From contig OZ038462.1 of NCBI GenBank assembly GCA_964036295.1, positions 41,149,680-41,213,679 of the forward strand: 64,000 nt of DNA, written 5' to 3'. Numbering within the stretch: position 1 is the first letter of the stretch; the number at the start of each line of letters is the position of its first letter. Position numbers and translations under genes: made by a program. Source of the stretch: Plumapathes pennacea (lineage: Eukaryota; Cnidaria; Anthozoa; Antipatharia; Myriopathidae). Shown here piece by piece: positions 10,959 to 63,397 of the stretch. A model generated the notes under the pieces. It did not search any database. It was not told where the DNA came from and saw only the letters and a list, made by a program, of their open reading frames with translations.

Positions 10959-11176
10959 GGTCTGCATAACACTTAACAGTAAAACATTTAGACCCATAAC
11001 GCTTGACAGTAAACCCCATCTAGGCCCTCTTGTCTTGTTTTATTAAATATCTAGTCTTGTAACACTTAACTGTAATTTTTTACATAACACTTAACATTAA
11101 TTTTTTTGGCATCATAACACTTAACAGTAAAAAATTCGGGCCCATAACACTTAACAGTAAACCCCATCTAGGCCCT
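10959..11176. repeat. Irregular tandem repeat of ATAACACTTAACAGTAAA
   Basis: At least six degenerate copies of ATAACACTTAACAGTAAA occur with variable spacers; the flanking phrase CCCATCTAGGCCCTC appears twice (about 11017 and 11164). The preceding sequence GGCCTAGATTGGGG near 10941 is its inverse, so the array may be the body of a small mobile element. Confidence 0.75.
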
Positions 11177-11439
11177 CCTGTAAATTCAAGCGGAAATTAT
11201 TGTACTTAGCTTTTTGTAATGCAGAGATAGAAACAATTGGTAGAACCCCGGCGAGATGAGATATAACCCGTAGAACCCCCCCAGCTCTGCAATTGATATG
11301 GCTCATCTCTGATTGATAAAAGAATCCATCATGTATGACCTTAACAACATACAAACTGAAACGACAATTCATAAATTATGAATTGTATAAATTATGCAAA
11401 AAGATCATCAAAACAAACAGATTAAATCAGTACGTGCAG

Positions 11440-12531
11440 CCATTGCGCACAACGATTAAACTGTGCTCCTGAATCCGCTAAGCGAGCAAGCACCCAGAAA
11501 CAGTTGGTGTAGAAACTGCTGCGGGTAAGTGTGAATCGTCTAAAGTCTATAAATTCCCTCGGCTTTATTTCAGCGATTATCGTGAAATGCGCCTTCATGA
11601 CGTATATTCGCGGTTCCTAGTTCTCTTAATCCCTGGAAGGTTCGCCAAACAAGTGTCTTTGATTTGAGACTGAATCGAACTGAACCACATACAGAAGTAA
11701 TGACTCATTACATCATTAATTGCCGGTTTCCTCTGTTTCTTAATGGAAAGTCAGTGTAGATTGCCGTGCCGTTCACGGCTTTCTCGGCGAACCAGACCGC
11801 ACCTGTCGTCTGTAAAGTAACCGAATAACAGCTTTACAAACTCTCTAAAATGTTAATAGCAGTTCAGATATTAAGCTAGTCGACTTCACATAAGTTACAT
11901 GCCTTTACTGCCGTTGATTAATTCAGATAAAGACATCGAGCTTTCTTGCGCTCTCGGCGTATAAAATTGATCATTGATGTCAACTTTGTCTTGAACCCAG
12001 ACTGTTTTTAAAGGATCAGTTAGTACTTATAAATTAAATAAATAAATATCGTTTATTTAAAGTCGAAGCATTAGGGAGTGGTTGCCCATTCTCCCGAGCC
12101 AGAGGTTCATGTTTCAAATGTCCGACCGTACTTAGGCCAGTAAGCAAGTATTCTCTCGGTAAGGTTATAATATGGCACCTTCGCATCCGTTTCACATCTC
12201 ACGACCTATTTTTAGAGGCAACCCTCGGTCAAAACAGTGCAAAGCAACTTTGACACGTGACTATATTGTAGCTGAAGCCGTGGTCATCGCACTTTTTGCG
12301 GCCGCGTTTAGTGTTCTTGGGATTGGAATGTGGCAGACCTGCAAACTTCCAACAGCGGCAGAATTGGAGAGGGACAGGAAACACAGAGAATTCAGAGCCC
12401 GAATGATAGAGAAATATGGCTGGGTTGATACCGCCCGTCCTAATAGTGAGGCGTTCTGGAAACTTTTGGTGAATTCACTGAACTCTTCAAGGAAAGCTGT
12501 CTCCAGAAGAGTTGGATTTGATGCTGTATAA
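11440..12531 (+). pseudogene. Small membrane protein family, copy 1 (probably defective)
   Basis: It has the family layout: a probable non-coding exon ending at 11524 before GTAAGT, and an acceptor TTTTTAG at 12215. The coding exon has lost about 20 bp after GTCAAAACAGTGCA, and the family start ATTATGATT has become ATATATTGT, so the first in-frame ATG in the spliced exon lies inside the membrane span. After EKYGW a further small deletion shifts the frame past the family stop, adding about 40 unrelated residues to a TAA at 12531. The span (VVIALFAAAFSVLGIGMWQT) and charged helix (ERDRKHREFRARMIEKYGW) are intact. An unspliced reading could start at ATG 12172. I favour a recent pseudogene; a product with altered ends cannot be excluded. 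Confidence 0.7.
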
Positions 12532-12828
12532 AAACATTTTATCTTTTGTGCTTTTTTTAGTGCACCACAGTAATCAAAACAACAAGGTGCAATAGGACTG
12601 TATGCTTTACTCGGTCTGTCTACTGAATCAAAGTTCAAAATCATACAAAACGACAGAACACTATTATAAACAGCAACGCTCGGGAACTTTGATTCGAGTG
12701 GTCGGCTGGTCGCACCTTTTAATTAGCTTCATTTGATAGTTTAGGAGTTGGAAGTGAACACTGCTATCATCAGAATGTACCCATCTACAGTTTTCATTTG
12801 AGTGGTCTTTATACAGTCAAAGTTCTCG

Positions 12829-12965
12829 CAGGCGACCACATCGGGAATTAGAAAAAGTGGTCGTAACTAGAGCTGGTCGCTTACGGGAATGGGCTCTCGT
12901 AAGCGACCACACGCTGAAACAGTAGAGGCTGGTCGCTTACAAGAGCTTTTAGCATAAAGCCGCTC
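12829..12965. repeat. Tandem GTGGTCGCTTACGAGAGC-type repeat, left part
   Basis: Variants of GGTCGCTTACGAGAGCTTTT and its complement CTCGTAAGCGACCAC recur here and again at 13640-13825. The array is split by the 523-bp element at 13102. Confidence 0.75.
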
Positions 12966-13101
12966 GGATGCTCCAGCCAAAACTTCCTTGAACTTTTAGA
13001 TTGAGATCTCATCAAACAAAAGATTAGCGCACTATGTCATATATTTCCTGTAAATGCGATCAAGTAGTTCACTTACAGTAAGGTGTTGACTAATACGAGT
13101 C

Positions 13102-13624
13102 CCCCGGGGAGGGGGGGGTACTCCCTATGATCGGCTATACGGAGAGGCTCCGCCCGAAAGGGGTGTATTTTTACGATCGAGGTATAAAAAAGGGTATAGG
13201 AAAATGACGTTTTTTAGGTATTTTAAAGGGTCAATAAAAAGGTGGAGTGAGGAAATAATTTTGGTATTTTAAAGGGGTACGAAAAACGCCAGGAAAAACC
13301 GGGGGGAAAAAATGGCGGAAGACCGGAAACTCCGCCTTGTTAAAAGTGGGAAGCACCCCGCCGTGGAATCGAAGGCTACAATCAAAGCAAGAGGTGTTTG
13401 TACTGCCTGATGCTTCCCGCCAGTTTAGGAACTGAATAAATGATCTGTTGAAGAATGTCGCGTTCCTGATCAAAGGTATAAAAAAGGGGTGCATTTGTAC
13501 TGGAGGTATATAAAAGGGTCCCGATTTTGCCCCCAGGATGGTATTTTAAAGGGTAAGGGGTTGACAGTCCGGGCGGAGCCTCCCCGTACAAAAGTCCTTT
13601 GAGTACCCCCCCCCCCCCTCCGGG
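13102..13624. mobile_element. 523-bp MITE with 8-bp target duplication (hAT-like)
   Basis: The identical 8-mer TACGAGTC flanks the element at 13094-13101 and 13625-13632. The ends are inverted: CCCCGGGGAGGGGGGGGTAC on the left and GTACCCCCCCCCCCCCTCCGGG on the right (close match apart from run length). A second inverted layer follows (GGCTCCGCCC against GGGCGGAGCC). An 8-bp duplication fits hAT or P-type superfamilies. Open frames inside are low-complexity and not transposase. Confidence 0.88.
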
Positions 13625-13639
13625 TACGAGTCAGACCTT

Positions 13640-13825
13640 TTGAGTGCTCGCTTACGAGAGCTTAAACAAAGGAAAAGATCAGTTGGTAATTCCCAAAAGT
13701 GGTCGCGGTCGCTTACGAGAGCTTTTATTACAGAGTTTGAGTGACAATTCAAACGGGGTTTCACAAATGTGGACGGAACTAGAGCTGGCAGCTTACGAGA
13801 GTGGTCGCAAGGAGAGCTTTGACTG
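13640..13825. repeat. Tandem GTGGTCGCTTACGAGAGC-type repeat, right part
   Basis: Continues the array seen at 12829-12965 on the other side of the inserted MITE, with units such as CGCTTACGAGAGCTTTTATT. Confidence 0.7.
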
Positions 13826-14156
13826 TTTTGGTATTCATAAACAAGTTTCCTTGGTTATTAAGTCTTCTTGCCTTTGGCACTGAAAGGGAGATTTTTTTAG
13901 AATAATTTAAATTTGTGCAGCTTGATCAAATTTTAATCTTCTTCTTGTGCACCTCACCGTGAACAAAGTATTATTTACATGTACAAGCAGAGATAGGACT
14001 CCCACTCAAGTCGATCGATATGGTCAAGAACCCATCATGTATGACCTGAACACTAAACTGAAAATTCATAAATTACGGCATGCTTATCTTATCTTATCTT
14101 ATCTTATATACGGTTTATCCAGATTCAAAAACCGTATGTCAAAACAAACATATTCA

Positions 14157-14714
14157 GTACGTGCAGCTAATTGGGCACAACGACTAAACTGCTCCTGAAT
14201 CCGCTAGGCGAGTTACAAACACTAGTGTATAGGGACGTTACTAGCTCGTCTAATTTTAAGTGTAGATTGTCCAAAGACGGCGGCGTGTAATTAATCATAA
14301 TCAAGTCAATTCCCTTGTCGCCGGCGAATCCAGACTCTTAAAAAGACCCAGCCACTTTATACTTAGAGCTGGTAAGCGAACAGTTTTCCCGTTGTGCGTA
14401 GTGATCTTCGAGTCTGTTTTACATTTACCCCGTCTTCTTTTTAGATAAACGGCTCGGTCAAAACAGTGCACGGAGTGTATACTTTGACATCAAGGCAACT
14501 TTGTGCAGTCGTGATTATGATTGTTGCTGGAGCTGTGGTCATCGCACTTTTTGCGGCTGCGTTTAGTGTTCTTGGGATTGGAATGTGGCAGACCTGCAAA
14601 CCTCCAACAGAGGCAGAATTGGAGAGAGAAAGGAAACACACGGAACTCAGAGCCCGAATGCAAGAGAAATTTGGCTGGGCTCCGCATGAGTACGATTACC
14701 GCGCCTCCTTTTAG
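14157..14714 (+). CDS. Small single-pass membrane protein family, copy 2
   Basis: Coding sequence is ATG 14517 to TAG 14714, 65 residues, in one exon that starts at 14445 after CTTCTTTTTAG. The upstream region from 14157 matches the probable non-coding exon of the other copies, but its splice donor is diverged. Residues 1-24 form a membrane span (MIVAGAVVIALFAAAFSV, then LGIGMW), followed by QTCKPPTEAE, a strongly charged helix (LERERKHTELRARMQEK) and the terminal FGWAPHEYDYRASF. Start choice: sequence upstream of this ATG is in different frames in different copies, and the diverged copy at 21350 has its ATG at the same alignment point. I know no named family with this pattern. Topology and function are unknown. 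Confidence 0.75.
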
Positions 14715-15419
14715 TGAGGCATTCTGGAAACGTTGGTGATTTCGCTGAACTCTTTGAGGAAAGCTGTCTCCAGGAGATTACGCCCTTCTCCACGCCGTCG
14801 CAGTCAAATTTAGTTATCTATATAGTGCTAGTTTTTCATTGTCCCCAGAAGAGTTGACTTTGTTTCTTTTCGTTTTTTAGTGTATCACAACAGTGGGGGT
14901 ATCATGACTTGGGTCACGTGTATATATAATACAGACCATCGGTTTGGTGCGCACATGCCAAGATTGAGGAGAAAAAAAACATGAACTAGTGTTTACTCAT
15001 AGGTCAATATGTCAATATGGATAGTTAAGCGATTAACAAGATACTTTACCATGTTTCTCAGTCCATTGAATCAGACTTCAAAATCATACAAAAAAATCAT
15101 AAAATGAACATTGCTATTTAAATATACTCATCGACCTTTCACACTTGGGTTTCATTTGACTTTAGGAGTGGAAAATGAACACTGCTATCATCAGAATGTA
15201 CTTATCTATAGTTTTCATTGATTTGTGAGTGGTCTTTGTTTGATATTCAGAAATAAAACGTTTCCTTGTTATTAAGTCTTCTTGCCTTTGATACTGAAAG
15301 GGAAAAACGAAAAACTTATAATTAGAATAATTTGAATTATGCTTTATCAGATCTTAATCTCTTTCAATTGTGCACCTTAACGCGAACAAAGCCGAGCTAG
15401 AGGTTCGAGCAAAGATAGG

Positions 15420-15735
15420 ACCAACGCTATTCCTAATGTCGATCGATTTGGGTCATCTCTGATTGATAAAGAACCCATCATGTATGACTAAACACTAGAC
15501 TGACAATTCATAAATTATGCTAAAAGCTATTAATGTCCACTGTTTTTTTAAACAAAAGTATTGTTAACATGAGCAGACTGAGATAGGAACCTCATTGAAG
15601 TCGATCGATATGGCTTATCTCTGATTAATAAAAGAACCGTCATGTATGACCTGAACACATTCCAACCGTAACTGACACTTCATAAATTAGCCATACATTA
15701 TGCTAAAAGCTCATCAAGATTCACTGAAAACCTAA
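15420..15735 (+). promoter_or_regulatory. Duplicated upstream block of the small membrane protein family
   Basis: A block with GTCGATCGATATGG, CATCTCTGATTGATAAAAGA, CATCATGTATGACC and TTCATAAATTATGC occurs upstream of family copies (about 11290-11400, 14010-14075, 17495-17600). It is present twice in tandem upstream of copy 3 (15420-15545 and 15560-15720). Position just before exon 1 makes it the likely promoter; no factor site is claimed. Confidence 0.55.
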
Positions 15736-15752
15736 CCAAAACAAACAGGTTC

Positions 15753-16361
15753 GGTACGTGCAACTTAAACTGCTCCTCGATACTTAAGCGAGTCAGAAAA
15801 GACAATTGCAGAAACTATTGGTGTGTAGGCTGCTGGTAAGTGTTTGAATTGTCCAAAGTCTGTGCTCCACGCCATCACTATAAGTTACTTTCACTTACAT
15901 TGTTTTATTTACAAACAGACATCGAACTTTCTGAGCTCTCGGCGTATGATTAATCATATGTCAACAGTCTCAAATTGTGTCGAATCCAGATTGTTACAGA
16001 TCCAATTTCCTCTCCACGTACTGTAGCCGATGAGCTCAGTTTTAATTCATAATGATACTTTAATTCGCGTCTGTTTCACATCTATCCCGTCTTCTTTTTA
16101 GAAAGCCAAAAAAGGTCAAAGCAGTGCACGGGAGTGTACGCTTTAAAATCAAGGCAGTTTTGTGCAGTCGTGATTATGATCGTAACTGGAGCCGTGGTCA
16201 TCGCACTTTTTGCGGCCGCGTTTAGTGTTCTGGGGATTGGAATGTGGCAGACCTGCAAACCCCCAACAGCGGCAGAATTGGAGAGGGACAGGAAACACAG
16301 AGAATTCAGAGCCCGAATGATAGAAAAATATGGTTGGGCTACGCTATATAATGATTACTAG
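15753..16361 (+). CDS. Small single-pass membrane protein family, copy 3
   Basis: A probable non-coding exon ends at 15835 (GCTGCTG before GTAAGT). The second exon starts at 16102 after CTTCTTTTTAG; coding is ATG 16176 to TAG 16361, 61 residues. The membrane span is MIVTGAVVIALFAAAFSV then LGIGMW, followed by QTCKPPTAAELERDRKHREF, RARMIEKYGW and a shortened tail ATLYNDY. One extra G in the 5' leader relative to copy 2 puts upstream sequence in another frame, which supports translation starting at this ATG. Downstream lies the roughly 90-bp dispersed repeat that follows other copies too. Confidence 0.75.
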
Positions 16362-16653
16362 TACCGCCCATTTTAGTAGCGAGGTGTTCTAGAAGCCATT
16401 GGTGATTTCACTGAACTTTTCAGTAGCAAAACCGTCTCCAGAAGAGTATGAGTTTCTTGTCTAGTCTTTTGTTTTTCCAGTGCACCACGACAAGGCACCA
16501 CTGGAGTATGACTTGCGGGGTCATGCATATATTATAAACAGAAACGTACATGAATACTCAAATGTATACTCATTAGAGCTTCCATTTGAGTGGTCACACA
16601 TTTGGTTTCATTTTAACAGTTCAGGAGTTGGAAGCGAACACTGCTATTACTAC

Positions 16654-17011
16654 CAGGGGCGGATCTAGGATTTTGAAAGTGGGGGTGGCTGGAGGCTGAG
16701 TATTGAGTATAGCCACTAGGGGGGTCCGGGGGCAAGCCCCGGGAAATGTTGAAATTTTAGAGTCTCTGAAATGGCATTTGCCCTGCATTTTTAGACCACT
16801 TTCGAGCACAGTTAAGAGTCTAATTTTAAAACGTGATATACTCTATTTCATGCATGGTAAGCACAATTTGATTACTGCAATATAAATTATAGGTATGTAG
16901 TAAGTGTTGATAATTTTTTATTTTATGTCAAAATGCCCAAAATTCCCTCTTTTTTCCACTTCAGAGGGGGGTGGCTAGCCATCCAATCCACCCCCCCTAA
17001 ATCCGCCCCTG
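16654..17011. mobile_element. hAT-type MITE, CAGGGGCGGAT termini, short copy
   Basis: The left end CAGGGGCGGATCTAGGA and the reverse complement of the right end CAGGGGCGGATTTAGGGGGG form terminal inverted repeats. A second copy in the opposite orientation, about 800 bp with a transposase fragment, is at 34323-35123; both share GGGGGTCCGGGGGC-type and GTGGCTAGCCA sequences. It sits inside the 90-bp repeat downstream of copy 3. Confidence 0.88.
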
Positions 17012-17279
17012 TTATACTCAATCCCATTGAGAACTTTCATTTTAATGGTCACACGTTTGGCTTTCACTAATTTGACAGTTCAGAAGTTGGAAGCGAATGA
17101 CTGCTATTGCCAGAAATGTACCCTTACGATTTCTGGGTTGGCAAATTCGCCTTTGGCAGTGAAAGGGAGAAACGCAAATGAAAAAAAAAAATGTAACTAT
17201 TGTAGATCAATTTGAACTATGCTTGAGAGTTCGCCCTGATTACTGCAACCTTAAAATGTATATCAAACCGTCTCTCTTT

Positions 17280-17400
17280 CTTTTTTGCTTAGCCAATAAT
17301 TCGAGTGGACAGTACGCTCTTGAAATCAGGGCAAACTCGACCGGCCTCACTATAAATGCTGCTCTGTTTGTGGCAGACCTGCAAAAGTTTGTTCAGCAAG
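17280..17400 (+). pseudogene. Relic of the small membrane protein coding exon
   Basis: Two pieces still match family exons in order: AGTACGCTCTTGAAATCAGG against TGTACGCTTTGACATCAAGG of the leader, and GTTTGTGGCAGACCTGCAAA against AATGTGGCAGACCTGCAAAC at the end of the membrane span. The sequence between has lost most of the span, and no open frame is kept. Confidence 0.5.
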
Positions 17401-17619
17401 TGTCCTTTATCTTTTAAGCTTAATTCTGACAAAGTATTGCTTAGAGGTATTAGTAGAGATAGGACATTCCCCTCCCCTCCACCCTCCCCCTCAGATAGGT
17501 ATCAATCGAGCAGCTCATCTCTGATTGATAAAAGAATGATCTGAACAACATGTCAACCGAAACTGACATTTCAAAAATTATACATTATGCTAATAGTTCA
17601 TCAAGATTCAAAACCGCAC

Positions 17620-18144
17620 AGCATGCCGTAGCTAGCAAAGTGACAAACTGCTCCTGTTCTTAAAGCGACGGAAAACAATTGGTGTGTAGGCTGCTGGTAA
17701 GCGTGAGGCGTATTATTCCAATTGGTCATCTGTCAACTCTCAGATAGTCACGAATCCAGACCCACAGTTTAAGCTCTCGTAAGGGAGCACTGGGAGCGTT
17801 CTCTTCAGGTACCGCAGTGAGCTGTTAATTCATATGACACATTCGCGTCTGTTTCACATCTATCCCGTCTTCTTTTTAGAAAGCCCTGGTCAAAACAGTG
17901 CACGGAGTGTACGCTTTGACATCAAGGCAACTTTACAGTCGTGATTATGATTGTAGCTGAAGCCGTGATCATCGCACTTTTTGCGGCCGCGTTTAGTGTT
18001 CTGGGGATTGGAATGTGGCAGACCTGCAAACCTCCAACAGAGGCAGAATTGGAGAGAGAAAGGAGGCACAGGGAACTCAGAGCCCGAATGATAGAGAAAT
18101 TTGGCTGGGCTCCGTTTGAACACGAGTACCGCCCGCCGTTTTAG
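17620..18144 (+). CDS. Small single-pass membrane protein family, copy 4
   Basis: A probable non-coding exon ends at 17696 (GCTGCTG before GTAAGC). The coding exon begins at 17880 after CTTCTTTTTAG, and the reading frame is ATG 17947 to TAG 18144, 65 residues. It has the span MIVAEAVIIALFAAAFSV plus LGIGMW, the linker QTCKPPTEAE, the charged helix LERERRHRELRARMIEK and the tail FGWAPFEHEYRPPF, close to copy 2. A Glu within the span (MIVAE) is shared with damaged copy 1 and is unusual for a simple anchor. Intron and exon sizes parallel copy 3. Function unknown. Confidence 0.75.
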
Positions 18145-18159
18145 CGAGACGTTCTCGCA

Positions 18160-21100
18160 GTAAACTCTAGTGTTAATTTCACTGAACCTTTTTTAGGTAA
18201 ATTGTCTCCATTTTACCGTTTTAGTTGTCCAGTTCGCCCCGACAAGATGGCATAGCCGAGTATCACTTGGTTTGAGTGCACAGACTATAATACGGTTGCG
18301 TGCGCATTTTCAAGACTATAAGGGGCCACAGTTGAATTATCACTGACTTTCCTTTCACAACCCTGCCGTAATTCGCAAGGCTATATTTTGCGGGCACGCG
18401 GGCCGCCTGATGGCAAGACTGGAGGAAGCTAAGGGAGCACCTTGGTCACTGCAGAAACAAAACCAAGCTCAGATTTACTACAACATTGTGAAAGTGGCTT
18501 ATTGTATTCGACGTGACGCATTTGTTTTTCATATAACAATATTGAGTTTCAAGGTCGTTTTCTGCCAATACATTTGTGGGCCATATTTGGCTGTACGCAC
18601 ATCCTTGTGAAATTATATTGTTCGTTTGTGATTTCGGGTCAGTGGCAAACCACAGTTGTTTCAATTAATTTTTTATTTTTGTGCCGGGTTCGTAATAAAG
18701 GCTAATTAGCATAGTTGACGATACGTTTTTGGCTTCGAAGCCAAATCAAGCGAATGTCAAGGAGCGGTCCCCCTTTAACGATTAGGTGAATAAATAAGAT
18801 CACCTACAATTCAGTACCCCGGCGATGGCATTGAATGATTCCACGATCAGCAGCTGGCCGTTTTAATTCTTTAGTAGTTTGACGATCGAGCTGGATACTA
18901 AACAAGGGGGAACGCTTTGGAGTGACGTGCATGAGCACCCTTAAAGTACCTATAATGGCAAAAATATTATTGTTAACATCGATTCTACGTCAGGTTAATA
19001 GTTGACTAGTAGAATATTTCTTGGTTTGGATGTTGTGCCTATGAAGGTTTGTTTCGAATATGCTAATGACGTGACGTCTACCCAGGCATTTTGTGTCATT
19101 TCTTTCTCCTTGTAATTGAAACTGGTCTCGGGTTCAAACAAAATATTTGGTAAAATCATTTGTACAAGTGTCAAACAAAACGTGGATGTGTATAAAATAA
19201 GCGGAATAAGCGGAAAGCCGAGTAGTCCACTCGAGAGGTATTGGAGAGGAACGAAGCTTGAGAAGTGTATGCGATCTACGACACTGCGACCTTGGAAGGA
19301 CGCGGACGAGAGGGCTGGCGAAAATTTGGGAGCTATAAACGGAGCAGGCGTTCTGCTCGAAGCGAAACTCGTGATGAATTGTAGGGGCGGACCACCCCTC
19401 GTACCAGTGCTTTGCGGCGGGAATTCCCGCTCTGTTAAGCCTGGTGCTCACTAGCGCATAAGCATAAGCATGGCAATATAAGCATAAGCGTAAGGAACGG
19501 ACGTATTTGATCCTTATGCTTATTGCTTATGTTGCCTGTCTCTCTATTATCCAGTAACTTTTGCCAACTACTTGACTCCATTAAACTTCCGTAGGATCCC
19601 CACAATTCATGAGCTTCAACCATTTACAGCTGGCCAATCATTGGGAACGTGTTAACATGACAGACAGAAACTGAAAAATAATTATGAGCAATTACACAGT
19701 TTGAAAAGGCGAGTGTTTACGTCTCACATATTTGCATACAGTTATTACAATGCAAATATCAACTCGACCGAGACTTACCTGCAGCTCTCCAACGTGCGTT
19801 TCTTTGTTGGTAAGTAAAACAACTCCGTTACGAAAGGTTTTACCTTACAAATCGTTTGGAACCGTATCATCCTGTTATATGGCTCGGCTGGACCCGGCTG
19901 TTGGGGTTTCTCGGTACAAAGTTGCCCTTTTTGCGTATACAGAAAGGCAGTGAATTTTACGGTAATTTTTGCCATTATTTCGCTAATCGCCAAAAAAAAA
20001 AGCAAAGTCTTGTCAAGTTTTTGGGAGTTAAAAAAATGCGTTTGAGCAAAATTGATGAAGGCACGGATAGTTCAATATAGCCTTCCTGAAGAGGCCTTTA
20101 TTTGCATACATAGAATACAATACAATACAATACTCTTTATAGTTTAAACACGGGGAGAGTTATAAGCATCACTGTTTGTGGGGTCATGTATAAAAATAAT
20201 CACTAATAATCAGTGATAAACGGCAATCGTTAACCTATATCTAAAAAGACTTTGTTGGCGCCATTGCTAAACAGTAATGTGAGTAGGTTTTCCTTGCAGT
20301 GTGGGTGTGTTTTGTGAATTCGAGAATTAAATAATTTTATACGTCTAACAATGCTCCAATCGCTGGTTTTAAAAAGTCGGCAAAATGAGTACACGAGGTT
20401 AAACAGCGAAGGCCCCCGACGAACCCCCTGAAGTTTGATTAGTACGTAATTTAGATCAAGGAAGGTTGATTTGGCCAGTTTAATTTACACTCGATTTTAA
20501 TACAAGTTGAAAAGGCGTAAACAGCGTTAGCCTTTTATCCAAAAGCGTTGTATAAAATATTCATTTTGGATCACTTTTAAACTAAAAGTAGACTACATAT
20601 TTTATCTGACTAGAAGTTCCATAATGGAAGTGAAACGCTGCCTGTCCGCACGCATTGATACAGCATTTCCGCGTTGCTGTATTTTCCATACTTTGTCCAT
20701 TCGCACACACTAAATCGGTACGAACGCGCCAGATTATGCAATTAGCTTCGTTTGAGACCACATCGGGTCAATTAGTTCAGTTAGAGGCAACCGAGTACAC
20801 ACTGTACCTACGGGCTTTTTGTGGCTGACTGAAACTCGGCCACTGCGACATTTTCGGCACGAAATTCCAGTTGCCTTGACAGCGAGCGAGAACGCTTCGA
20901 TATAAACACGGTCGGAGTTTCGCTCAAACAGGTCGCGCATTCAACAGATCGAGCTTAAAAAGTTTGGTTTGATTAAACCCAAATTAAAGTATTGCTCGAT
21001 CAATTCATTTCGTGTAGAACCTTCCTGTAGAACATGTGTGTATGGCTCAAAAACAGCACCTGAGAACTGCACACAGAAATGCACTGTACATATAAAGAGT

Positions 21101-21184
21101 AAAATGGATACGAGCTTTTTAATTCTCGCCAGATTAAGAACTAGCCTGTCACGCGCTCATATAGGCCCGCGATCAACGGTCAAG
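18160..21184. other. Spacer between family copies 4 and 5
   Basis: About 3 kb with no supported gene. At 19116-19454 both strands are open for just over 100 codons, but neither frame has domain features or splice partners. An inverted segment rich in GCATAAGCATAAGC at 19450-19530 and a short AATACAATAC run at 20106-20132 are the only structures noticed. Confidence 0.5.
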
Positions 21185-21250
21185 TGCCAGTAAAAGAGCA
21201 GTAAAAGTGCCAGTAAAAAGTGACGGTAAAAGTGGCAGTAAAAATAGAAG
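21185..21250. repeat. Short tandem repeat (AGTAAAAGTGCC type)
   Basis: Five or six degenerate copies of a 12-18 bp unit containing AGTAAAAGTGCC lie directly upstream of family copy 5. Confidence 0.7.
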
Positions 21251-21349
21251 TTTGATGTCCCTTTGGAGGCTCTGTAGATATGACAAAGCATGTTACCATT
21301 TTCCAGATCAAGACGCTTCAAATCCATACGTTTGGGGTGACATATAGAT

Positions 21350-21541
21350 ATGGTGATCCTGACTAGTGTTATACTGGGGTCCATCTTCACGGTGGCTTTT
21401 GGTGTTCTGGGAATACAGATGTGGTATATCTGCACTCATGGAGTGGAGCAAGAAGAAAAACGAAGAATTTATAAAGACAAAATGGCACACAAGTTTGGCT
21501 GGGACCCGTCGCACAATAACAACAGAAGATACTTCTTTTAG
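21350..21541 (+). CDS. Small single-pass membrane protein family, copy 5 (diverged)
   Basis: ATG 21350 to TAG 21541, 63 residues, after a possible acceptor TTTTCCAG at about 21306. The sequence is clearly related but much diverged: span MVILTSVILGSIFTVAFG then VLGIQMW, aligning with FSVLGIGMW of the other copies, then a charged helix (EEKRRIYKDKMAHK) and FGWDPSHNNNRRYFF. Conservation of the start position, the xxVLGIxMW span end, the charged helix and the FGW motif, with little else kept, suggests protein-level constraint. The CKPP linker is replaced by CTHG. It lacks the strongly matching upstream block of copies 2-4. Confidence 0.7.
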   Translation: MVILTSVILGSIFTVAFGVLGIQMWYICTHGVEQEEKRRIYKDKMAHKFGWDPSHNNNRRYFF

Positions 21542-22204
21542 TCGCAGCTGCCCGCAGAGTGAGTCCTGTTTACCAGCTTGTTTAGATAACAAACTTAAAT
21601 AGCTCGAACTGTTTGAAGTCGACAATTTTATCCATGACATGTTCACTGCCTTGACTGCGTTCAGTTGTCGCACAATGGACGGCGCCCAAGTCGGTGCAAG
21701 GGGAAAAACCTTGGACGCTTGTTACAACATCTTGTATCTATGTTTTAATGTTTATTAATCTTTTGTTTGTCGGACCGAGAACTTGTGCCAGATGAGCTAA
21801 ACTATTTATCTTCGTGAACAGATGCGTGCTATGAAAAGATGCTGGAGTAGCCAAGAAAAATTATACCAATAAGAAACTCTATCAATTCCATTTGGCGTCT
21901 GTGATCATTGCAAATTAGCGTGGGAGCCACTGTTTCTCTACCCTAGTTCCAGGTTCCTCGCTTGCAAATAAAGAGCGACGAAGGCTCGGCAGAGAGCGGC
22001 AAAGGCGAACAGTAGCAAGGGGAACGTGTCCTTTCCGCTCGCTTTGTCGTCGCCGTTCTTGTCGGAAAACTCTATACGGACGAGTAATATACGGACCTCT
22101 GGAACTAGGGTACTGTTTCTCCTGCATAAATACATTTGCACCATAGACTCGGTAGTTTGCAAGACGCAGAACTGGCCTCAACGCTACCGTTGTTTTTTAA
22201 TAGA

Positions 22205-22440
22205 TACTTCCAACGTCAGTGCACAGACCTTTTAAACTTGATGTGACAATAGTCTTCACGGCTATAGCTTTAGTTGCTGGCGTTCTTGCAGCCGCATTTT
22301 AGTTTTGTCGCCAGTAGAACTGCATGGTAGAGATCCCGTAACTCCTCCAACGATGGATCGAATAAGTAGAAACAAGGAAGATCGAAGACAAGATGATGGC
22401 CGAGGAAACTATAGCTCTGTTTTTGCCTCACATTTACCAG
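22205..22440 (+). pseudogene. Decayed copy 6 of the small membrane protein family
   Basis: After a TTTTTTAATAG acceptor-like site, the frame reads VTIVFTAIALVAGVLAAAF, matching the family span, but a TAG follows and further in-frame stops interrupt the rest. A charged tail (ETRKIEDKMM) is recognisable about 40 codons later. It lies 0.7 kb beyond copy 5, in line with the tandem array. Confidence 0.6.
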
Positions 22441-22794
22441 CCAGACTGTTACTATGTTGTATTCGGATTATATAACCACTCGAGAAATATCCATATCATG
22501 TTAAGTGGTTTTAATGCTGTTACGACAACCCTGTCATACTCTTTTGTATAATATATGGCGGAAATAATAAAATTAAATATCTGGTGGACTCTATGGCTGC
22601 AACCAGTCATTAGGATGATAAGCCTGTTGCTTCATGTATTTGTTTTGTTGTTTTCTGATTGAGGTCCTTTAAAAGGTGCCGAAAAGATTGAACTAAACCT
22701 TTGTCATGTACTGTAGACATCGAATAAATTAAAAGTACGTGTTACACAGACGCCTTTACAGTTGTAAATTGTCACTTGCTAATTTAACCGGTGT

Positions 22795-25041
22795 GGACGG
22801 TACCCTGTGTTCCAGAGGTGTCTTGTTCTCGGAAACTTGGGCACTGCAGGCCGTGCTTTCTCCGTCTCGGCTTGCGCCTAGTCCCCAGCGCTCGGCGGTC
22901 CGCAAAGGCCGGTGTAAGAGTCTTTTTTGCCCCCCTGGCAAAAAGGCCTCCCCGGGCATTATTGCCCAGGCAAAAATGCCTCCCCGGGCTTTTACGCCCA
23001 GGCAAAAAAGCCCTCTCTGGGTAAAAATGCCCCCCATTCACAAAATCATCAATTTCGAGTTACAAGTAATTCTGATCAACAAATCCGTGCACAGCTCGTC
23101 CGTGCGTAAACATAGGATACTGAAATAATCAAATTCTAGCCAACATCTGGATGTAATCAGTTCATACTGTCAAGTGCTGCGTGACCTGTGGTGTCTTTGA
23201 TGAACTGTTTTGGAGGAGTGAGGTGGGCGGACGGACGGACGGACGGACGGACGGACGGAAAGAAACGGGATGGTGGTGGGGGGGGGGGGGGGGTGAGGAA
23301 TTCCACTCGCCCTCCTCGTTTTATTCGTGCACCCCGCCCTACCTTATTCGTCACAATCCGCGTGGGACTAGAAAATAAAATAGTTTCTTTCTGGAGAATA
23401 TCCCCATTTGCCAAACTTAGCGTGCGGCGGAAACAATTATCGCTGCTTTTTTGTGTTGGAATCATTCTCGGTTTACGGTGAATTTTGATATAACAGAGAA
23501 CGCGTGGCAGAAATTAAACCTGACAGGGTTAGGGTTAACGGCGAACGTCGGAGGTCTCTCTCGGAAGACATTTCAGTTCAGCGATCTGGGAACTTTTCAA
23601 CTAATACTGTATCGAATAAATAGCTTACCCACGTTGTGCCTCTAATAGTATAATAGTACACTTTTACCTTTTAAATTGCGTTTAGTAACTTGACAGCCGG
23701 ATACACTAATTATTCAGTGGTGGACGAGAAACAGGTACTCCAAACGTCAATATTTCACGTTCAAACTTTACCCTGTACAGAATGTCATTGAAGTCGTTTG
23801 TTTCTAAATACAACGGCAAATATCTATTTGGTCTTTGTTGAAATACATTTCCAGTTAAGTGGGAAAAGCACAAGTTGCGACCCTTAATAGGATTATTGTA
23901 CTTTGATTAGCAATTGTAACTTGACATATCATGTCGGATACAATTGGCTTATCATAGGCGAAAGCCAGATTGTCCAAAACGACTCACATTTGTAACGCTT
24001 GCCGAGGGCACGGAGCAGAAGGAACTCACAGGTCACTAACATAACACTTTAATTACAAACGGTCTGAACGCTACGAAGAACCTCAGAAATTCCCTTCACA
24101 AGTCTAAAGTACACGTACAGTCATACAGTAGAACAAAGGCTACACAAAAAAGCGAAACAATAAAGAAAGGCTACTTCACAATAATAATCAAGTATTGTAC
24201 TAAATGGATATTCCAAAGATATCTGAGTTGTGACTCAATAGATTCAGACACGTACTGTATTGTAATCACTAACTAAACGCAACACAGTGATCAGTGTTGG
24301 TTACAATATGATTAAACAAAATAAAAGAACAAACTTTTTAAATAATAGCTTGCCCGAAAGACTATCAAAACAGCAATTTGAAATTTGCTGTCGAAGATGA
24401 CAAAGGTTTTGCCCTCGGAAATGCCAAGACAATCAATGACAGAGAAATCGCAGGCAGCCCACAATTTATTTTAGAAAAGTTTCAAAGCAAACCGCAAACC
24501 TTATTTCAAAGTTCTCGAAATGGAAGGGAAAGAATATAAAAAAAGTGAGGAGGGTAGTACCCTCCTTCCCCCTCTCCCCTGAGTTCTATATATATATATA
24601 TATTTTTTTTGCGTGTTTTCTTTTCTCTCCATTAGCCCTCCCCTTCCGTTTGAGGAGGTGTTAAACAGACGCCGAGGTCAACCAGCGTGACGCGCGTCAC
24701 GGAAGGTGCACGCTCCCTGTGAAGTAAGATAAGAAAGTCCGGAATCGGTGTCACATTTTGGCGCAACTGAATAATTCTCTTTTATGACGCCTTAGAAGAG
24801 TCCTGGTATTGTGCTAACCTTTTTGAATATGCCTTTGTTTGTATTTAAATATCCTTGTTTGGCTAGAGTTATTAGCAACTATTCTAAACGCCGGGCATTT
24901 TAGCCCAGAGGGGGAAACTGTATCTACAGCATTTTTGCCTGGGCGGAAATGCCCGGAGGGCATTATCGCCTGGGATAAAATGCCCGGGGAGGCAAAATAT
25001 TGGGGGGGCATTTTTGCCCACTACACCGGCAATAACCGTCC
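22795..25041. mobile_element. Putative GGACGGT-ended element with internal CCCGGGCATT-type repeats
   Basis: The left edge GGACGGTACCCTGTGTTCCA and right edge AATAACCGTCC reappear with almost nothing between them at 30046-30175. This suggests that the 22.8-25.0 kb interval is a long form and 30.0 kb a deletion form of one element. Inside, two clusters (22930-23035 and 24890-25020) repeat short palindromes such as GCCCAGGCAAAAATGCCTCC. No transposase is seen in 23.0-24.9 kb. Confidence 0.45.
23226..23294. repeat. (ACGG)n microsatellite and G run
   Basis: About eight GGAC units are followed by a run of G starting at 23278. Confidence 0.9.
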
Positions 25042-37389: not shown

Positions 37390-40356
37390 AAAAATACTAA
37401 CACTGATTAAACTTTAGTTAAGATTGCTGTTGTATTGTATTATATAACACTTTAAAATCCCTTGCCTTTGGTTCCGATACTTCTCTCTGATAGCTTGCTG
37501 AGGGTGATTTGGAGCATGACAAAATGTACGATGGAGATCGTGGAGACAAGCTTGGAGGTCATACAGCTCAAAACCAGTGTAATGTGCTAGAGTTGGTGAC
37601 TGGAACATATTAAGAAGTGTCAGCAAACTAGCTTATGATAATACATGTCTCTACAAACACTTAAAATTCAAGTCTGTGAACAGCAGAATCTCACATACTC
37701 ACCCAAGAAGTGAGACCCAGAGTATGTAAAGCTAGAACCACAGAAGAGGCAGCAATAGTAGATGGGAGGTATTTAAGGTAAGGGTCTGCATCCAAGGTTG
37801 TCAATTCACAGAGGTACTGCAAATAAAATAAATACTGTCCGTTATAATCCTGAAATTGGCCCAGGATAATATTTTGTAAAGGAGCCAAATTAACATTGTT
37901 GTGACTTTATGCAAAGAGTTATCCAAGCTGTTCAACAAGAACCCATTTGCTTTTCATGCCGGTTCATTCCCACCCAAGGCAGTGAAATTTAAAAAAAAAA
38001 AAAAAAAAAATGCCTTTCTACCCATGGCTCAGGTGATGACAGCAGGCTGACCCTATCGAGTTTGAGATTGTTCCAAGGTGGAAAATTTACAATACTTTTG
38101 GTACCCACTCTTGAAAGAGAATCCAATTCTGCTACAACAACATCAGGAACAGCTGCAGCTTTCAGGAATCTGTCCAGGAAGTCCAGAACAGTAGGGACTG
38201 ACAAATCAAATGCCAAAACCTTCAGCACTAAGTGCTCCATTTTGAGAACCTGTCAAATAAAGCACAGTGAATCTTATGCCAGTAAATTACACCCACCCAG
38301 CACGAAAAGTGTACTACAGTGTTATTTAAGTTTCTTTGGCAGGCACCAATTATGCCGAACCACACTTTCAGGGGTTACAACACAGAGGTCAAACAAAGCG
38401 GACTTTCCCAAACCCCTCCCCTCCTCATATGGATGGCAACCTTTTTTGTATTAAATTGCACAACTCCTGTAGATATTCTCTCTCATGAACACTACACCTG
38501 CTTATCTGTATAAGTATCATCTGTGATATACACAAACTCAGCAACTTCAGGAGGATAGATCTCTTCAAATTTCCTGTAGGGTACAAGGTCAGAAGGAAAG
38601 AAAAGAAAAGAAAAAACAAACAAACAAACAAACAAACAAAAAACCTGGTCATCCTAAACCCAATCTGTGAACATGGAAACTTATAACAATATTACAGTGC
38701 AGCTGTTACATTTAAATGCCACAGAACTCAGCACATGGGTAATACAGGAATATAGTGCATTTGCAGAATGGTACGAAGCAAGAAGCATGCAGGCAGTTCC
38801 AACGAGCTGCAGTTTTCCTCGCAGCACTGACATTGCAGACAGGAACCGGTCAATGTAGTTTACAGTCAGGTAGAATGTCTGAGGCAGAAGCTTGTACTCG
38901 TCAGCCACCTCCACCAACCAGTCGACAAGGATTGCTCGCATGCTGTGGTTAATGTCAGGTTGCTTTTTCATGTAGCCTGGTTTGGGTCTGTGCTTCAGCT
39001 AAAAAGAAGGCAAGAGGAAGATGGAATTCAACATCCTTAACTCTTCTATGTAGGATGGATATGGTGGGATGTCTGACAAGGCTTCACCCAAACAAGACTT
39101 TACTTCATATTTTCTCTGGACATCACATGCTTCTTGACTGAAAGTTGATAGAACCATCCATTTCTCACTACTAATACCTTTTTTTTATGAAATGGTTGGA
39201 AGAATCTGCATTTTGAGCTCAGGAGTGAAAGGCTGGTTAGATATTTACCCTTTGCAATAAAATAAGTTAATGTTTCACCATAAATGCACTGTTAGTTCCA
39301 CACTGGAGCTACAAATTCAAAGCAAAAAAAAAAAAAACAAAGTGCAAACAGAGAAAGGAAAAATGGCGTGAAGAGGAAAATATGTCGACCGTGCGCACGT
39401 GGTTGAATAAAGATTGCTTCGCCTCGGCAAGAACAACAACAACAAAAAAGACCATACTTTCTCTGAGCATTATTTGTTTAAACTTTTTGATGATATTGAC
39501 ATATTTCATGAATGTTGCATCTGGAATCAAATTGCTTTCCTACCTCAGTGTCCTTTAGATACTTAAAAATGTCTGCGGCATATTCTGGAACCAGAAGGTA
39601 ATCGACACCCGAATCGATGTCGTCGACCTTGCGAGCTTTGGCCACGCTTGGGCATTCAAAATCGTCATCGCTAGAACAACTTCTGTCGACCAACATTGGA
39701 GAATCGACTGCAGAAATAAAGCATATTTACGTTAGAACCGCACAAAAGAACTGAGAATGAGAAAGGACAAAACACATTCTACCATCGTCGTGACTTTCTT
39801 CATGGATGTCTGACAAAGGTGGTCGCGAAAGCGAAGTGACAGCAGCGTCAAGTTCTGGTTCTCGGGACTTGAAGTTTGAAAATGCTGTTCCTTGAGCCTT
39901 TGAAACGACGCTTTGCGAGTCAACATGTATGGTAAATTGCTGATGAGTTGCAGTTGGGACGGCAAAAGCAGATTTTGCTGGACGGGCATAGGCATTTTCG
40001 TCGTTGTTCTTTTGTGAAACGGTGGTGAAGATATTCGTCACCGAAGCCTGTCGAACGGAAAGTAATTTAAGAGGTATCAACATATCGAAAAGACTCATAC
40101 ATTTCACAAGCAGACAAGGTCTGAAGAGGCGTTCAAAGTTCCCACTAACCTGTTTCGCTGCGCGGAAGGGCTGCACCCTCACCGCGGCGTCCACGTTGTT
40201 CGTGATTGTGCCCAAAACTGCGCGCTTTTTTCCTTGTTGGATGCCCAAACCAACTTGTCCATTGTCAAGCTTTACTTTCTTCAATGCGTTGCTTCCTTGG
40301 TTATCTTCCCCAGCATTGTGAGTAATTCTAAATGCACCGCCAAAGGCCAACGACAT
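37100..40356 (-). CDS. CCNA: Cyclin A
   Basis: Nine exons on the minus strand: 40150-40356, 39783-40047, 39544-39707, 38775-38998, 38498-38573, 38109-38249, 37703-37816, 37466-37599 and 37100-37151, giving 458 residues with all phases consistent. Near residue 45 is a destruction-box-like RAVLGTITN. The cyclin core follows: [15 protein letters not shown], then [12 protein letters not shown] (cyclin A MRAIL hydrophobic-patch motif), [30 protein letters not shown] and [11 protein letters not shown] in the second cyclin fold. The C-terminus QAIREKYRN ... PPQSIPL matches the cyclin A tail. Intron 8 appears to use a GC donor (CAAAG|GCAAGG); reading through it gives an atypical tail, while splicing restores the family ending. 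The product activates CDK1/2 in S and G2/M and is degraded by the APC/C. Confidence 0.95.
37343..37384. repeat. (AAT)n microsatellite
   Basis: About fourteen consecutive AAT units just upstream of cyclin A exon 9 on the minus strand, within intron 8. Confidence 0.95.
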
Positions 40357-41661
40357 TTCAACCACTTTTGAGTGTACGTAATTTCAACGGCCTTCCTCAA
40401 GGCAATGGGAAGGCTTTTGATAAAAATAACTACTGGTCGAACAGAGTATTCTTCGATGGTTTCAAAGTGTGCTTTGAAAAGCAAATATTCTGGTTGTACT
40501 GGCACCAAGTAGATCCAACTTGAGCTCCTTCTGTGCAAGAATGGCGTGAAGTGAACGTTTGAGGTCTGCACAGTTTTCAAGAATCCCGCTAATTTATGAT
40601 CAGCCAATCAACGCGCAGAACGAACTCCTTTGTTTTTTTCGCACGCGTGATACTGCTGACCAAAGCGGAGCCAGCCTTCCTTTGTCGGCCTTGGTTTTCT
40701 TTTTTCCGGGTTTAATATTTCCTCCAGTTAAAGTTACTCTCTCCAGCTTTACTTCAATCTTCCACCCCTTTTCACTTTCTCTCTGTGTAAATCATGGTTG
40801 TTTTACCATAAAATCAACGGCATGAAATACGTCAAGGAAACACCGGGACAAAACTAGCGTCAATTCCGAAACCTGTAATTTGCATTCCAGTTCATTGGTA
40901 TGATCAATATCTTCGAAAATTAACAAAGGCGGAACGTCGGAGTGTTGTGTTTCATCAGGACCAAAGGTGGAACCTCATCTTTAGTCAGTAATTGGCCATC
41001 CGCAATCGACTCCAGTGACTGAATTACCGAGCTCTCTAAAAACCACTGAGTTGCTGAGATTGGCAGAAGCCTTTAAAAGTTTTTGCGTTTTGTAAACTTA
41101 TAGCAAGCTGCAGTGCCAAATTTTGCGGATTCCTTAACGCATTTCTGCGTACTTCTTGAGTAAATTGTTTGCATTTCTCAGCTTCCTTTGAACACATGTT
41201 CACGACGGCAATCAGGATTCAGTGCAGGATACAGGGCGGCTACTAAACAGAATGCAACGATATCCTTGGATGACACCCATGTGCTTTAGTTCTTCTCCTT
41301 CAAAAAAAAAAAAAAAAAAAACCGACAACTAAACCTGAACGACAACAGCATACACGTGTAAAAATAAAGGAATGATTGATTGAGCAACGGCGGGTGCAAT
41401 ATAGCAACAACAACGAAATTCTCTGAAATCAAGCGAAACTACACAGCCGAACTCGCTGATGCACAAACATGGTAACGACTGGCGACGCTTTAATACAATT
41501 CTAAAACATTTCAATATCTCGAGGATATTCTTACTGAAACAAAAAGCTAAATTTTATCTCCATCAAAAGAAATTAGTGACACAAGCAGATTTCAGATTTC
41601 AGATCTGTCCGAAAACCACACGCGACCTGAGCCGTGCAATAATAACAACAACAACAACAAC

Positions 41662-42251: not shown

Positions 42252-45200
42252 TCAGAGTTGGCAGGAGTCCTCTTCTGTGTCAGCGCAGCTTTGCATTCCA
42301 GAGCAGTACTGTAGCATCAACATCGCTAGCGCTTGGCTTCGCTCCTCGGATTTGGACTGGGGAAAAAAGGGTTATGACACAAAGAAATGACGCAACACAG
42401 GAATGACGACACAAAAGAATGATGACGAAGAAATAACGACACATCTGGCAAAAAAATTACCTCGATCGCAGGCTCTTATCTTGTAACAGAGATTAGAACT
42501 ACAGGGATTTCCCATAAAACCTCATAAAATATATTTTTTGGGAAAGAGTGGGTAGGGGAAGGGGGAGAAGTTGTTCTAAGTCTTAACTGATCTGGCATTT
42601 GCGCAGAGCCGTGATATTCAAGATAGAACAATCAATCGATCAATTGACGCGTGCTAGAGAAGTAACTTACAATCATTGCTTGGATGTGTTTCTTGTGCTT
42701 GCCGCCCTTAGCCTTCTTTTTCAGCTCGTACCATTCTGTCCGTGTTTGATTTTCTTCGTCGATCTCAACTTGTAATCGTGCCATCTGAAACAAGATAACT
42801 GACTCAAGCCGCTGAACGACCAGCAACCAACAACCAACCAACAACCGACAACCAACAACTAACAACCAACAAACAACCAACAACGACCAATAGCCAGCAA
42901 CCAACAACCAGCAACCAACAACCAACAACCAAACAACCAACAACCAGCAAACAGCAAACAACCAACAACCAACAAACAACAACCAACAACTAACAACCAA
43001 CAAACAACGACCAATAGCCAGCAACCAACAACCAACAACCAAACAACCAACAACCCACAACCAGCAAACAACCAACAACCAACAACCAACAACCAACAAC
43101 CAACGACCAACGACCAACAACCAACAGCCAAAAACCAGCAAACCAACAACCAACGACAAACAATCAACAAACAGCAAACAATCAAAGGCAACGACCAATC
43201 AACAGCAAACATCCAACCAACAACAGTCAACAAAAAGCCAACGACCAAAGAACAGGCAGAAACCAACGACCAACGACCAACCAACAGGTACTCACCATCT
43301 CCTGAAGCTTGTGTTTTCGCACCAAAAGTGGAAGGTTAGAAAATAGTTCACGTCCGACCTGAAACAAACATCATTTTCCCTCATTTATACCATCAAATGC
43401 AAACAACTAGAACAATTGAACTGCTATTACAAGTGATGTACTACTTATTTAGAACTTTCATGTGAATGGTTACACCTTCAGGTTTCATTTGACAGTTCAG
43501 CAGTTGGAAATATTCAAAAGGCTAAATGCTCACTCAGTACTAAACCAATACGGAAATCCATTCCACGCTTTACACGAGATGCATTTGAATAGTACGACTC
43601 TCTCACCTCTCTGACTTTAGCTGACGCCCTCGCAATGTCCGTTGTTGCGTCGCTTTTTGCTCTGGCGCGTGGAGAAGCTTCCTGCCAGTCGGTCTCAGAG
43701 TCATCGCTATCGAACTCCTGGAACAAAAACCGTGCACACTATTATTGCCATGCTACTCTAAATCTTATTCAAACTTCGTTCAACAGCAATGTGAGCACTG
43801 CTATTAGGTTCTTGTTCTTATTGGTATCTAAAGTTAGTTGCAAACTAAGAGTGAGTGCCACAAGATATTGTATGATTGTTAAAATAAAAATAGAAAAGTT
43901 AATTTTTCTACCGCGATCTTTGGGTACAATTTTCATCTCGAAGTTGGATCAAAAGGCATTCACAACGGGCACCAAGTAAATACATTATCTTATTAACCGC
44001 CGAGTGCACGGTTCTTACGGTAAGCTGCGGACTGAGTTTTCGCCTCATGTCCGAGCCGTAAGTTCTGGACCAGTGAACCGACCAATCAGAGCGTGCGTAT
44101 TACTTGTGCCATAAAGTAAGACGTATTGTTACCTCTTTAGCGATTGGTTCTTGCTCGTGCTCCTTCTCTTTTTCCATTTGTGTTTCTTTTTCTGTTCTCA
44201 CTTCTTCGTTATCGTCGTCCTTCTCTGATCCAGCTGTTCCACCATCAGTTGTATCTTCTTCTTGAGTTGGTTCAGGCGGGCTCGTAGTATCACCATGCGC
44301 GTTTTTCTCTACGTTCTTCTTTTTGTCGGTTGACGCTTCCTTCGATTTGGAGTCCGTGTTTTCTTCCTCAGCAACATTCCTCATAAACCATCTTTTGCCT
44401 TTTGTAATTCTTTTGGATGAAAAACGATGGGTGATGTGCGTCATAAAGTGCAGGGCATGCGACAAGTAAACAACAACAAGTAAACAATACTGGAGTGTTT
44501 GAAAAGTTAACGCTTAGAACGTCAGTTAAGACATGACCTCGTCTCTTCCCAAACGGAGAAATATGTGAAAGCGACCTACAACAACAACGACAACACAAAG
44601 CGCGATACATACCGGACACAATGTGTGAAATTGAGGCAATGCTGTAGGCACTTCTTGTGACAAATCATAGCACAAACGCGGCACTGAAACGCAACTTTAG
44701 TCCACACCTGCGAAAGAAAAGGTGGTCACGTGTAAGGAACGCCGACTGCTTAAATTACGTATTTTTTAAATTCTAGTCTGAAAGAAAAAATTGCAGATTA
44801 CATATCGAATGCTCGAAAGGCGAACTTGATGACTGACCCAAAAAAATCCTAACTCTTTTTGATTATCAAGTCTATTTTAAACAGAAAAACCTGGCAGTCA
44901 AGGTGTAACAGCCTTTACGTCCCCAATTTGACGCCTTTTCCGTGACCTCCCACTTCCTCTCAACTAAATCAACACCCAGACCCAAAATACTCCGAAATTC
45001 CGAAATTTTCACACCTTCTTGTTGCAGTAGTTACACCGCGTAGGGAAGTAGAACTGCGTCAGGTTAAAATGATGCTTCAGAGGTTCCTGACTGTTACAAG
45101 AAAACAAAAATTTCCAATGTTAGTGACGGGAGAAGGGCACCCTACAAATCTAGAGAACAAATGTCGGTACAGCATCAGGCTTTGTGCCTGTCACACGGCA

Positions 45201-63200: not shown

Positions 63201-63302
63201 CTGATCATCGCGATCTTTGTCATACTGTGTATCTACCGTTACCACAACAAACAAATTGCGGAGTACCGAGATGTCTTCTATTCGCAAGGATCTGATTACC
63301 AG
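54266..63302 (+). CDS. Seven-Ig-domain transmembrane receptor (VEGFR/PDGFR-like ectodomain), 5' part
   Basis: Nine exons: 54266-54323, 55613-55891, 56237-56557, 57285-57635, 58327-58644, 60183-60446, 61297-61617, 62014-62289 and 63118-63302; 791 residues in the window. Exon 1 is a signal peptide (MMLQQMLALILFNGFCRAS). Exons 2-8 each carry one Ig domain, bounded by phase-1 introns, with Cys pairs such as INCTT/YKCMA, FTCEV/FKCEL, VSCRV/FTCLA, VYCEV/YKCTA, IRCIH/YSCMS, LFCNV/YRCTA and VTCTG/YSCFA. Exon 9 has a short stalk, a membrane span at about 746-769 (LGVGFGVFLIIAIFVILCIY) and juxtamembrane AEYRDVFYSQGSDYQ, then a phase-0 donor. Seven Ig domains plus one span match the VEGFR class, but no kinase exon is present, so other Ig receptors remain possible. 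It is head-to-head with the PDZD8-like gene. Confidence 0.88.
55223..55390. mobile_element. Mariner-like MITE (TACAGT...ACTGTA)
   Basis: TACAGTTGAACCTGCTATTT at the left and the reverse complement of the right end TACAGTCAAACCATG are inverted, with TA at both tips as expected for Tc1/mariner-type insertion. The body contains GAAATAGCAG and GAAATAACAGGGAC. It lies in intron 1 of the receptor gene. Confidence 0.75.
56712..57174. mobile_element. Hairpin plus flanking inverted ends in a receptor intron
   Basis: At 56712-56861 the sequence folds on TTTTTCAAAGACCACAAA and its complement with a GCACGAGTGC centre. Directly after, TAATAACATGCATACAATAA (56867) is mirrored by TTATTGTATGCATGTTATTA ending at 57174. 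Either two adjacent MITEs or one nested element. Confidence 0.7.
58675..58910. mobile_element. 236-bp MITE, first of a direct pair
   Basis: Ends CCTGGACAAAAGTGTTGACA and the reverse complement of TGTCAACACATTTTGTCCAGG are inverted. A near-identical copy in the same orientation is at 59605-59840. Confidence 0.85.
59605..59840. mobile_element. 236-bp MITE, second of a direct pair
   Basis: Same sequence as 58675-58910 with scattered differences (CTTGGACAAAAGTGTTGACA to ACACATTTTGTCCGGG). The two are separated by about 690 bp of unrelated intron DNA between receptor exons 5 and 6. Confidence 0.85.
60732..60790. mobile_element. Solo terminus related to the MITE at 2349
   Basis: GGCCTGGTTCAGCCGTCC and GCCGAACCTAATGCAAATTA resemble the left end of the 2349-2702 element (GGCCCAGTTCA, ACCGAACCTAATACATGCAATT). 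No matching right end was found nearby. Confidence 0.45.
62374..62575. repeat. Tandem copies of the dispersed ~90-bp repeat
   Basis: Two to three direct units of GTGACCACTCAAATGAAAGC ... CCTGAACTGCCAAATGTAAC are present. This is the reverse orientation of the repeat seen in the small membrane protein cluster and at 43440. Confidence 0.85.
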
Positions 63303-63397
63303 GTAAGCTGGACGAAACACACCGCATTTTCGGCCGTAAGGTCAACTTATATTTTATTCAGCGGTCATTAGTGCACAGAACTGTGGATTCAGATTAA

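Follow-up and report, generated by a model that had tools for sequence, protein, structure and literature searches.

The window analysed here, a whole stretch of 64,000 nucleotides (positions 41149680-41213679 of contig 1, in an assembly of 290,015,204 bases and 24 contigs), contains an array that very probably consists of tandem protein-coding genes of one small membrane protein family. Homology between the copies, their tandem layout, constraint at the protein level over the family and the finding of no further copy in the genome are taken as established. The reading as a whole, in which the array is a tandem gene family of one small membrane protein that would work as an accessory subunit or regulator, has about an even chance of being correct. 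Small membrane proteins are easily overlooked by gene prediction, and a duplicated, selected small family represents a compact target in which VLGIxMW, C27, M48, K51 and GW can be tested singly, while the two age classes of copies permit a comparison of old and new function.

Table 1. Coordinates in the window of the gene copies, relics and upstream blocks of the array
Feature	Positions	Strand	Basis or remark
Upstream block and putative non-coding exon 1, copy 1	11330..11524	+	GT donor 11525; four-copy alignment
Copy 1, damaged	12265..12429	+	Range limited to the homologous part of the frame
Copy 2, intact, 65 aa	14517..14714	+	AG acceptor 14443-14444
Upstream block and putative non-coding exon 1, copy 3	15650..15835	+	GT donor 15836
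Copy 3, intact, 61 aa	16176..16361	+	AG acceptor 16100-16101
Possible relic, insecure (predicted at 17280)	17369..17385	+	Shares an exact 17-bp stretch with copies 2 and 4
Upstream block and putative non-coding exon 1, copy 4	17560..17696	+	GT donor 17697
Copy 4, intact, 65 aa	17947..18144	+	AG acceptor 17878-17879
Copy 5, diverged, intact, 63 aa	21350..21541	+	Possible AG acceptor 21305-21306
Decayed relic of a further copy (predicted at 22205)	22217..22394	+	Alignment scores against shuffles

Three similar intact copies, a diverged intact copy and a damaged copy had been described in the original prediction, and the corresponding open reading frames were all found in place (Table 1). In copy 1 the start codon is gone through a small deletion and the frame runs open beyond the usual stop. 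Repeat finding returned a 228-nt family of four copies, three of which show 70%, 82% and 86% identity to the reference copy. On the antisense strand, the frame in register lacks stops in three of the four intact copies and is interrupted by one in copy 3. In copies 2 and 3 the coding frame is also open upstream as far as the acceptor; their leaders (14445-14516 and 16102-16175, respectively) lie in frame with the ATG and have GVYxLxSRQxCAVVI in common. These open leaders are probably due to chance, and a longer N-terminus may occur in some copies. As a feature of the family, a longer in-frame N-terminus was rejected and the ATG was retained as the start, because copies 4 and 5 carry an in-frame stop upstream of it, their open frames counting 74 and 66 codons.

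The organization around the coding parts is that of a putative two-exon gene. Most copies had been proposed to share an upstream block and a non-coding exon; this holds for copies 1-4, in which the block is common to the alignment of the four close copies, and fails for the diverged copy 5 and for the relic at 22205, ahead of which the block was undetected (18900-21300 and 21560-22230, respectively). GT donors are present in three of the four close copies (1, 3 and 4), the usual exon-1 donor being lost in copy 2, where a GGTAAG seen by eye at 14371-14376 might replace it, and AG is found just ahead of the coding part in all five copies. Ungapped comparison of copies 1-4 shows the coding part to be 86-98% identical, with 93-98% for the membrane half and 86-94% for the C-terminal half. 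The values are 63-76% for the upstream block together with exon 1, 64-88% for the leader of exon 2 and 70-77% for the sequence immediately following the coding part; the putative intron has 34-58%, and its final 41 bases 73-100%. At the sequence level, such a profile is the one that would be expected of a gene with a leader intron. Copies 1-4 would have arisen by duplication of a unit of approximately 1.7-2.3 kb, copy 5 would be a paralogue of earlier origin, and one or more additional copies would have decayed.

Two such decayed copies had been suggested, and one of them stands. Aligned with copies 2 and 4, the relic at 22205 obtains scores of 49 and 46, above the highest values of 32 and 33 seen in 300 shuffles each; its alignment with copy 5 gives 33, where shuffles go up to 39. 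For the relic at 17280 the scores with copies 2, 4 and 5 are 34, 40 and 23; the corresponding shuffles reached 35, 41 and 35, which leaves this relic weakly supported.

Kinship between the diverged copy 5 and copies 1-4, as claimed beforehand, is beyond chance on the basis of alignment scores. Indeed, a profile built from copies 1-4 assigns 41 bits to copy 5, the maximum among shuffles being 18.1 (5000 shuffles of copy 5 with its halves shuffled separately, 4964 of which were scored and reported). Whole-genome searches point in the same direction: copy 2 as a query reaches copy 5 at E 1.6e-5, and copy 5 as a query reaches the other four copies at E 2.9e-6 to 6.3e-5. In a search that passes over very common words and scores the best candidates only, the matches in the 290 Mb of the genome at E <= 0.001 are these five copies alone, five of five within the array. 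One hit of copy 5 elsewhere, on contig C11 (E 0.545, 33% identity), was put down to chance. Similarly, a motif pattern matched the genome at five places, every one inside the array, and nowhere on the opposite strand or in a reversed control; since the pattern was derived from these same copies, its informative part is the absence of further matches. The upstream block of copy 3, searched against the genome, gave four matches, again all in the array, the block of copy 2 being missed.

Repeated units inside 11 kb could also be expected of a mobile element fragment. That the array is such a fragment is hardly credible, as the copies lie head to tail in a single place, matches of the coding part and of copy 3's upstream block at E <= 0.001 occur only within the array in a genome search that passes over very common words and scores its best candidates, and inverted repeats of 40 nt or longer are absent from positions 11000-23000. 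Neither a transposon-encoded family nor an already named one, the two identities that the original prediction had set against its own reading, turned up in the libraries and the genome searched.

The remainder of the window contains other candidate genes. An exon-like open reading frame on the minus strand (39727-40380) corresponds to the cyclin-A N-terminal APC/C-binding region, with a match to Pfam Cyclin_N2 above the cut-off (E 7.8e-11). Immunoglobulin-domain exons extend over 55558-63371 on the plus strand, with Pfam matches at both scanned frames (56203-56580 and 57263-57697), similar-looking exons recognized by eye at 55558, 58212, 60134, 61230 and 61887, and a likely membrane span, again by eye, at 63003-63371; together they probably form one cell-surface receptor gene. 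Exon-like open reading frames are also present on the minus strand at 47187-52721, where one C2 match reaches 21.3 bits, just below the cut-off of 22, and the other scanned frames have no Pfam match; these frames presumably recall PDZD8, an SMP lipid-transfer protein. Finally, a long low-complexity stretch at 42632-43346, reading NNQQPTT on the plus strand and VVGCWLL on the minus strand with two open frames per strand, is a simple-sequence repeat.

The coding parts of the array support purifying selection on the family as a whole. In a codon model, in which copy 1 was entered as 55 codons and stop codons were omitted, the best of three topologies gives an omega of 0.395 and omega 1 is rejected (2dlnL 12.2); rejection is also obtained with the other two topologies (2dlnL 12.5 and 10.3). 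Taken with the higher identity of the coding part than of the intron, these values bear out the earlier suggestion of selection on the protein. The comparison proposed for copies 2-5 is in line with them: Nei-Gojobori dN/dS is 0.30, 0.41 and 0.42 among the three close intact copies, and 0.31-0.35 between copy 5 and copies 1-4, the latter with saturated dS (1.6-1.8). For the damaged copy 1 the values against copies 2, 3 and 4 are 0.66, 0.34 and 0.68. Differences between close intact pairs at codon positions 1, 2 and 3 number 6, 5 and 14; 6, 5 and 9; and 7, 4 and 12, respectively. The constraint is unevenly distributed along the protein, with an omega of 0.241 in the membrane half versus 0.444 in the remainder. 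In particular, close intact copies differ by 1-3 non-synonymous changes in about 61 sites of the membrane half, versus 10-12.5 changes in 80-89 sites elsewhere. The better conservation of the membrane half suggests a function for the span itself.

Branch tests distinguish among the copies. Omega 1 is rejected for copy 5 and copy 3 (2dlnL 12.57 and 5.66), while copies 2 and 4 are compatible with it (2dlnL 1.69 and 0.01, with an estimate of 1.13 for copy 4). On the branch of copy 1 omega is at its upper bound and not different from 1 (2dlnL 1.41), so that this damaged copy looks unconstrained. The array might then be dying, a former gene whose copies are now mostly untranscribed, and the fit of copies 2 and 4 to omega 1 goes along with this, as do the damaged copy, the one clear relic and the lost splice donor of copy 2. 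The chances of this scenario are nonetheless small, given four intact frames, an overall omega below 1 and an identity that falls sharply outside the coding part.

The predicted products are consistent with small membrane proteins. All four intact copies encode 61-65 residues, hence fewer than 100, with one predicted membrane span. The membrane span and charged C-terminal part that had been proposed are both recovered: the best 19-residue Kyte-Doolittle mean is 2.38-2.66 in all four, in a hydrophobic stretch that begins at residue 1-2, and the C-terminal part has 13-17 charged residues of both signs among its 34-38. Sixteen columns are invariant in all five copies, including VLGI, MW, C27, M48, K51 and GW. 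AlphaFold2 run on the five sequences of the window yields a weak model (mean pLDDT 67.9, pTM 0.27) with helices at residues 2-27 and 32-52, the first of which, as modelled, is hydrophobic enough for a membrane span. An amphipathic nature of the charged helix was considered and rejected, its hydrophobic moment being under the shuffle mean in all four intact copies; a simple groove-binding helix is therefore unsupported. Beyond the span, the net charge of the four intact copies lies between 0 and +3, values that do not separate cytosol, lumen and mitochondrial interior.

A hydrophobic stretch that begins at residue 1-2 is also what signal peptides look like, and the protein could be imagined as a cleaved signal followed by a secreted charged tail. 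Such processing is quite improbable, in that the hydrophobic half is the better conserved one, the opposite of what is usual for a cleaved signal, and the only invariant cysteine (C27, kept in five of five copies) sits at the end of the span.

In the preferred reading of a tandem family of membrane proteins, the N-terminal helix would insert each protein as a signal anchor, the anchor region would comprise the conserved AF(S/G)VLGIxMW stretch and the boundary cysteine, and a short helix, highly charged and closing with F/Y-G-W, would be presented to a partner. The likeliest role, tentatively proposed, would concern a larger membrane complex, which the protein would join as an accessory subunit or else regulate. 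A fuller version, to which we give somewhat less than an even chance, is that of an undescribed, lineage-restricted microprotein family, arranged in tandem and under purifying selection, in which copy 5 keeps an ancestral role in a complex and the younger copies are variants. The array is best read as the outcome of ordinary tandem duplication of a membrane microprotein gene that is possibly lineage-restricted; families of this kind are familiar, and the family itself may be new. As it stands, the array is one among many uncharacterised small gene families.

The claim that no described family has this layout was upheld in Pfam, NCBIfam and PDB, where no match exceeds the cut-off, and holds for these libraries only. 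In the Pfam scan of the five proteins, with copy 1 taken as its 119-aa open reading frame, nothing reached the curated cut-off and the best E value was 0.006, over the charged stretch. NCBIfam gave no match over the curated cut-off. The candidates TFA2_E-tether (the best, at E 0.006), T4SS_pilin (0.04) and DUF6725 (0.11) from the Pfam scan, and TrbK_Ti (0.052) and MamI (0.073) from the NCBIfam one, were ascribed to composition, and these weak family matches sit under their cut-offs wherever a cut-off is shown. In PDB there were no matches for copy 2, and a profile finds one chain, mL88, at E 3.2 over the charged stretch. Short patterns fitted 57 stretches in GTDB genomes and 70 in IMG/VR, with confirmation in 0 of 57 and 0 of 70. 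In the literature searched, no mention was found of the motif letters VLGIGMW or VLGIQMW, and nothing joining coral, micropeptide, single-pass and tandem.

Two families deserve separate consideration. UPF0640 (PF15114), which we take to be SMIM4, is absent from the matches of the five proteins at E up to 10, in a scan whose filters remove the majority of those above about 0.1. A distinct UPF0640 homologue is located on contig C4 of the genome (G000:C4:619122-619241, 54.9 bits versus a cut-off of 27); therefore, the array is unlikely to be UPF0640. As for C12orf73/Sloth2 (brawnin), whose Pfam family is presumably PF15054, no such match was listed in the Pfam scan.

Among known systems, SERCA-regulating micropeptides such as sarcolambans belong to the same size class; they have their span at the C-terminus, whereas the array proteins have it at the N-terminus. 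SMIM proteins in general are alike in size and in their single span, and differ in that no profile match was found here; to our knowledge, VLGIxMW and a terminal F/Y-G-W are not features of any named SMIM family. The array could still belong to an animal microprotein family that is already known, such as that of a mitochondrial assembly factor, as a member too diverged for the profiles to recognise. This is unlikely, since none of the five proteins reached a Pfam cut-off, the PDB profile match is only at E 3.2, and the genome's own SMIM4 homologue counts against the SMIM4 candidate. What speaks for it is the size and single span, which recall Sloth1 and Sloth2, described in PMC9681215 as likely paralogues of 79 and 61 residues, with one predicted span each, that regulate complex III. 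The likeness to these complex III microproteins (human SMIM4 and C12orf73) consists of fewer than 100 residues, one predicted span and likely paralogy. Sloth1 and Sloth2 are carried by one bicistronic message, whereas in the array every one of copies 1-4 comes with an upstream block of its own.
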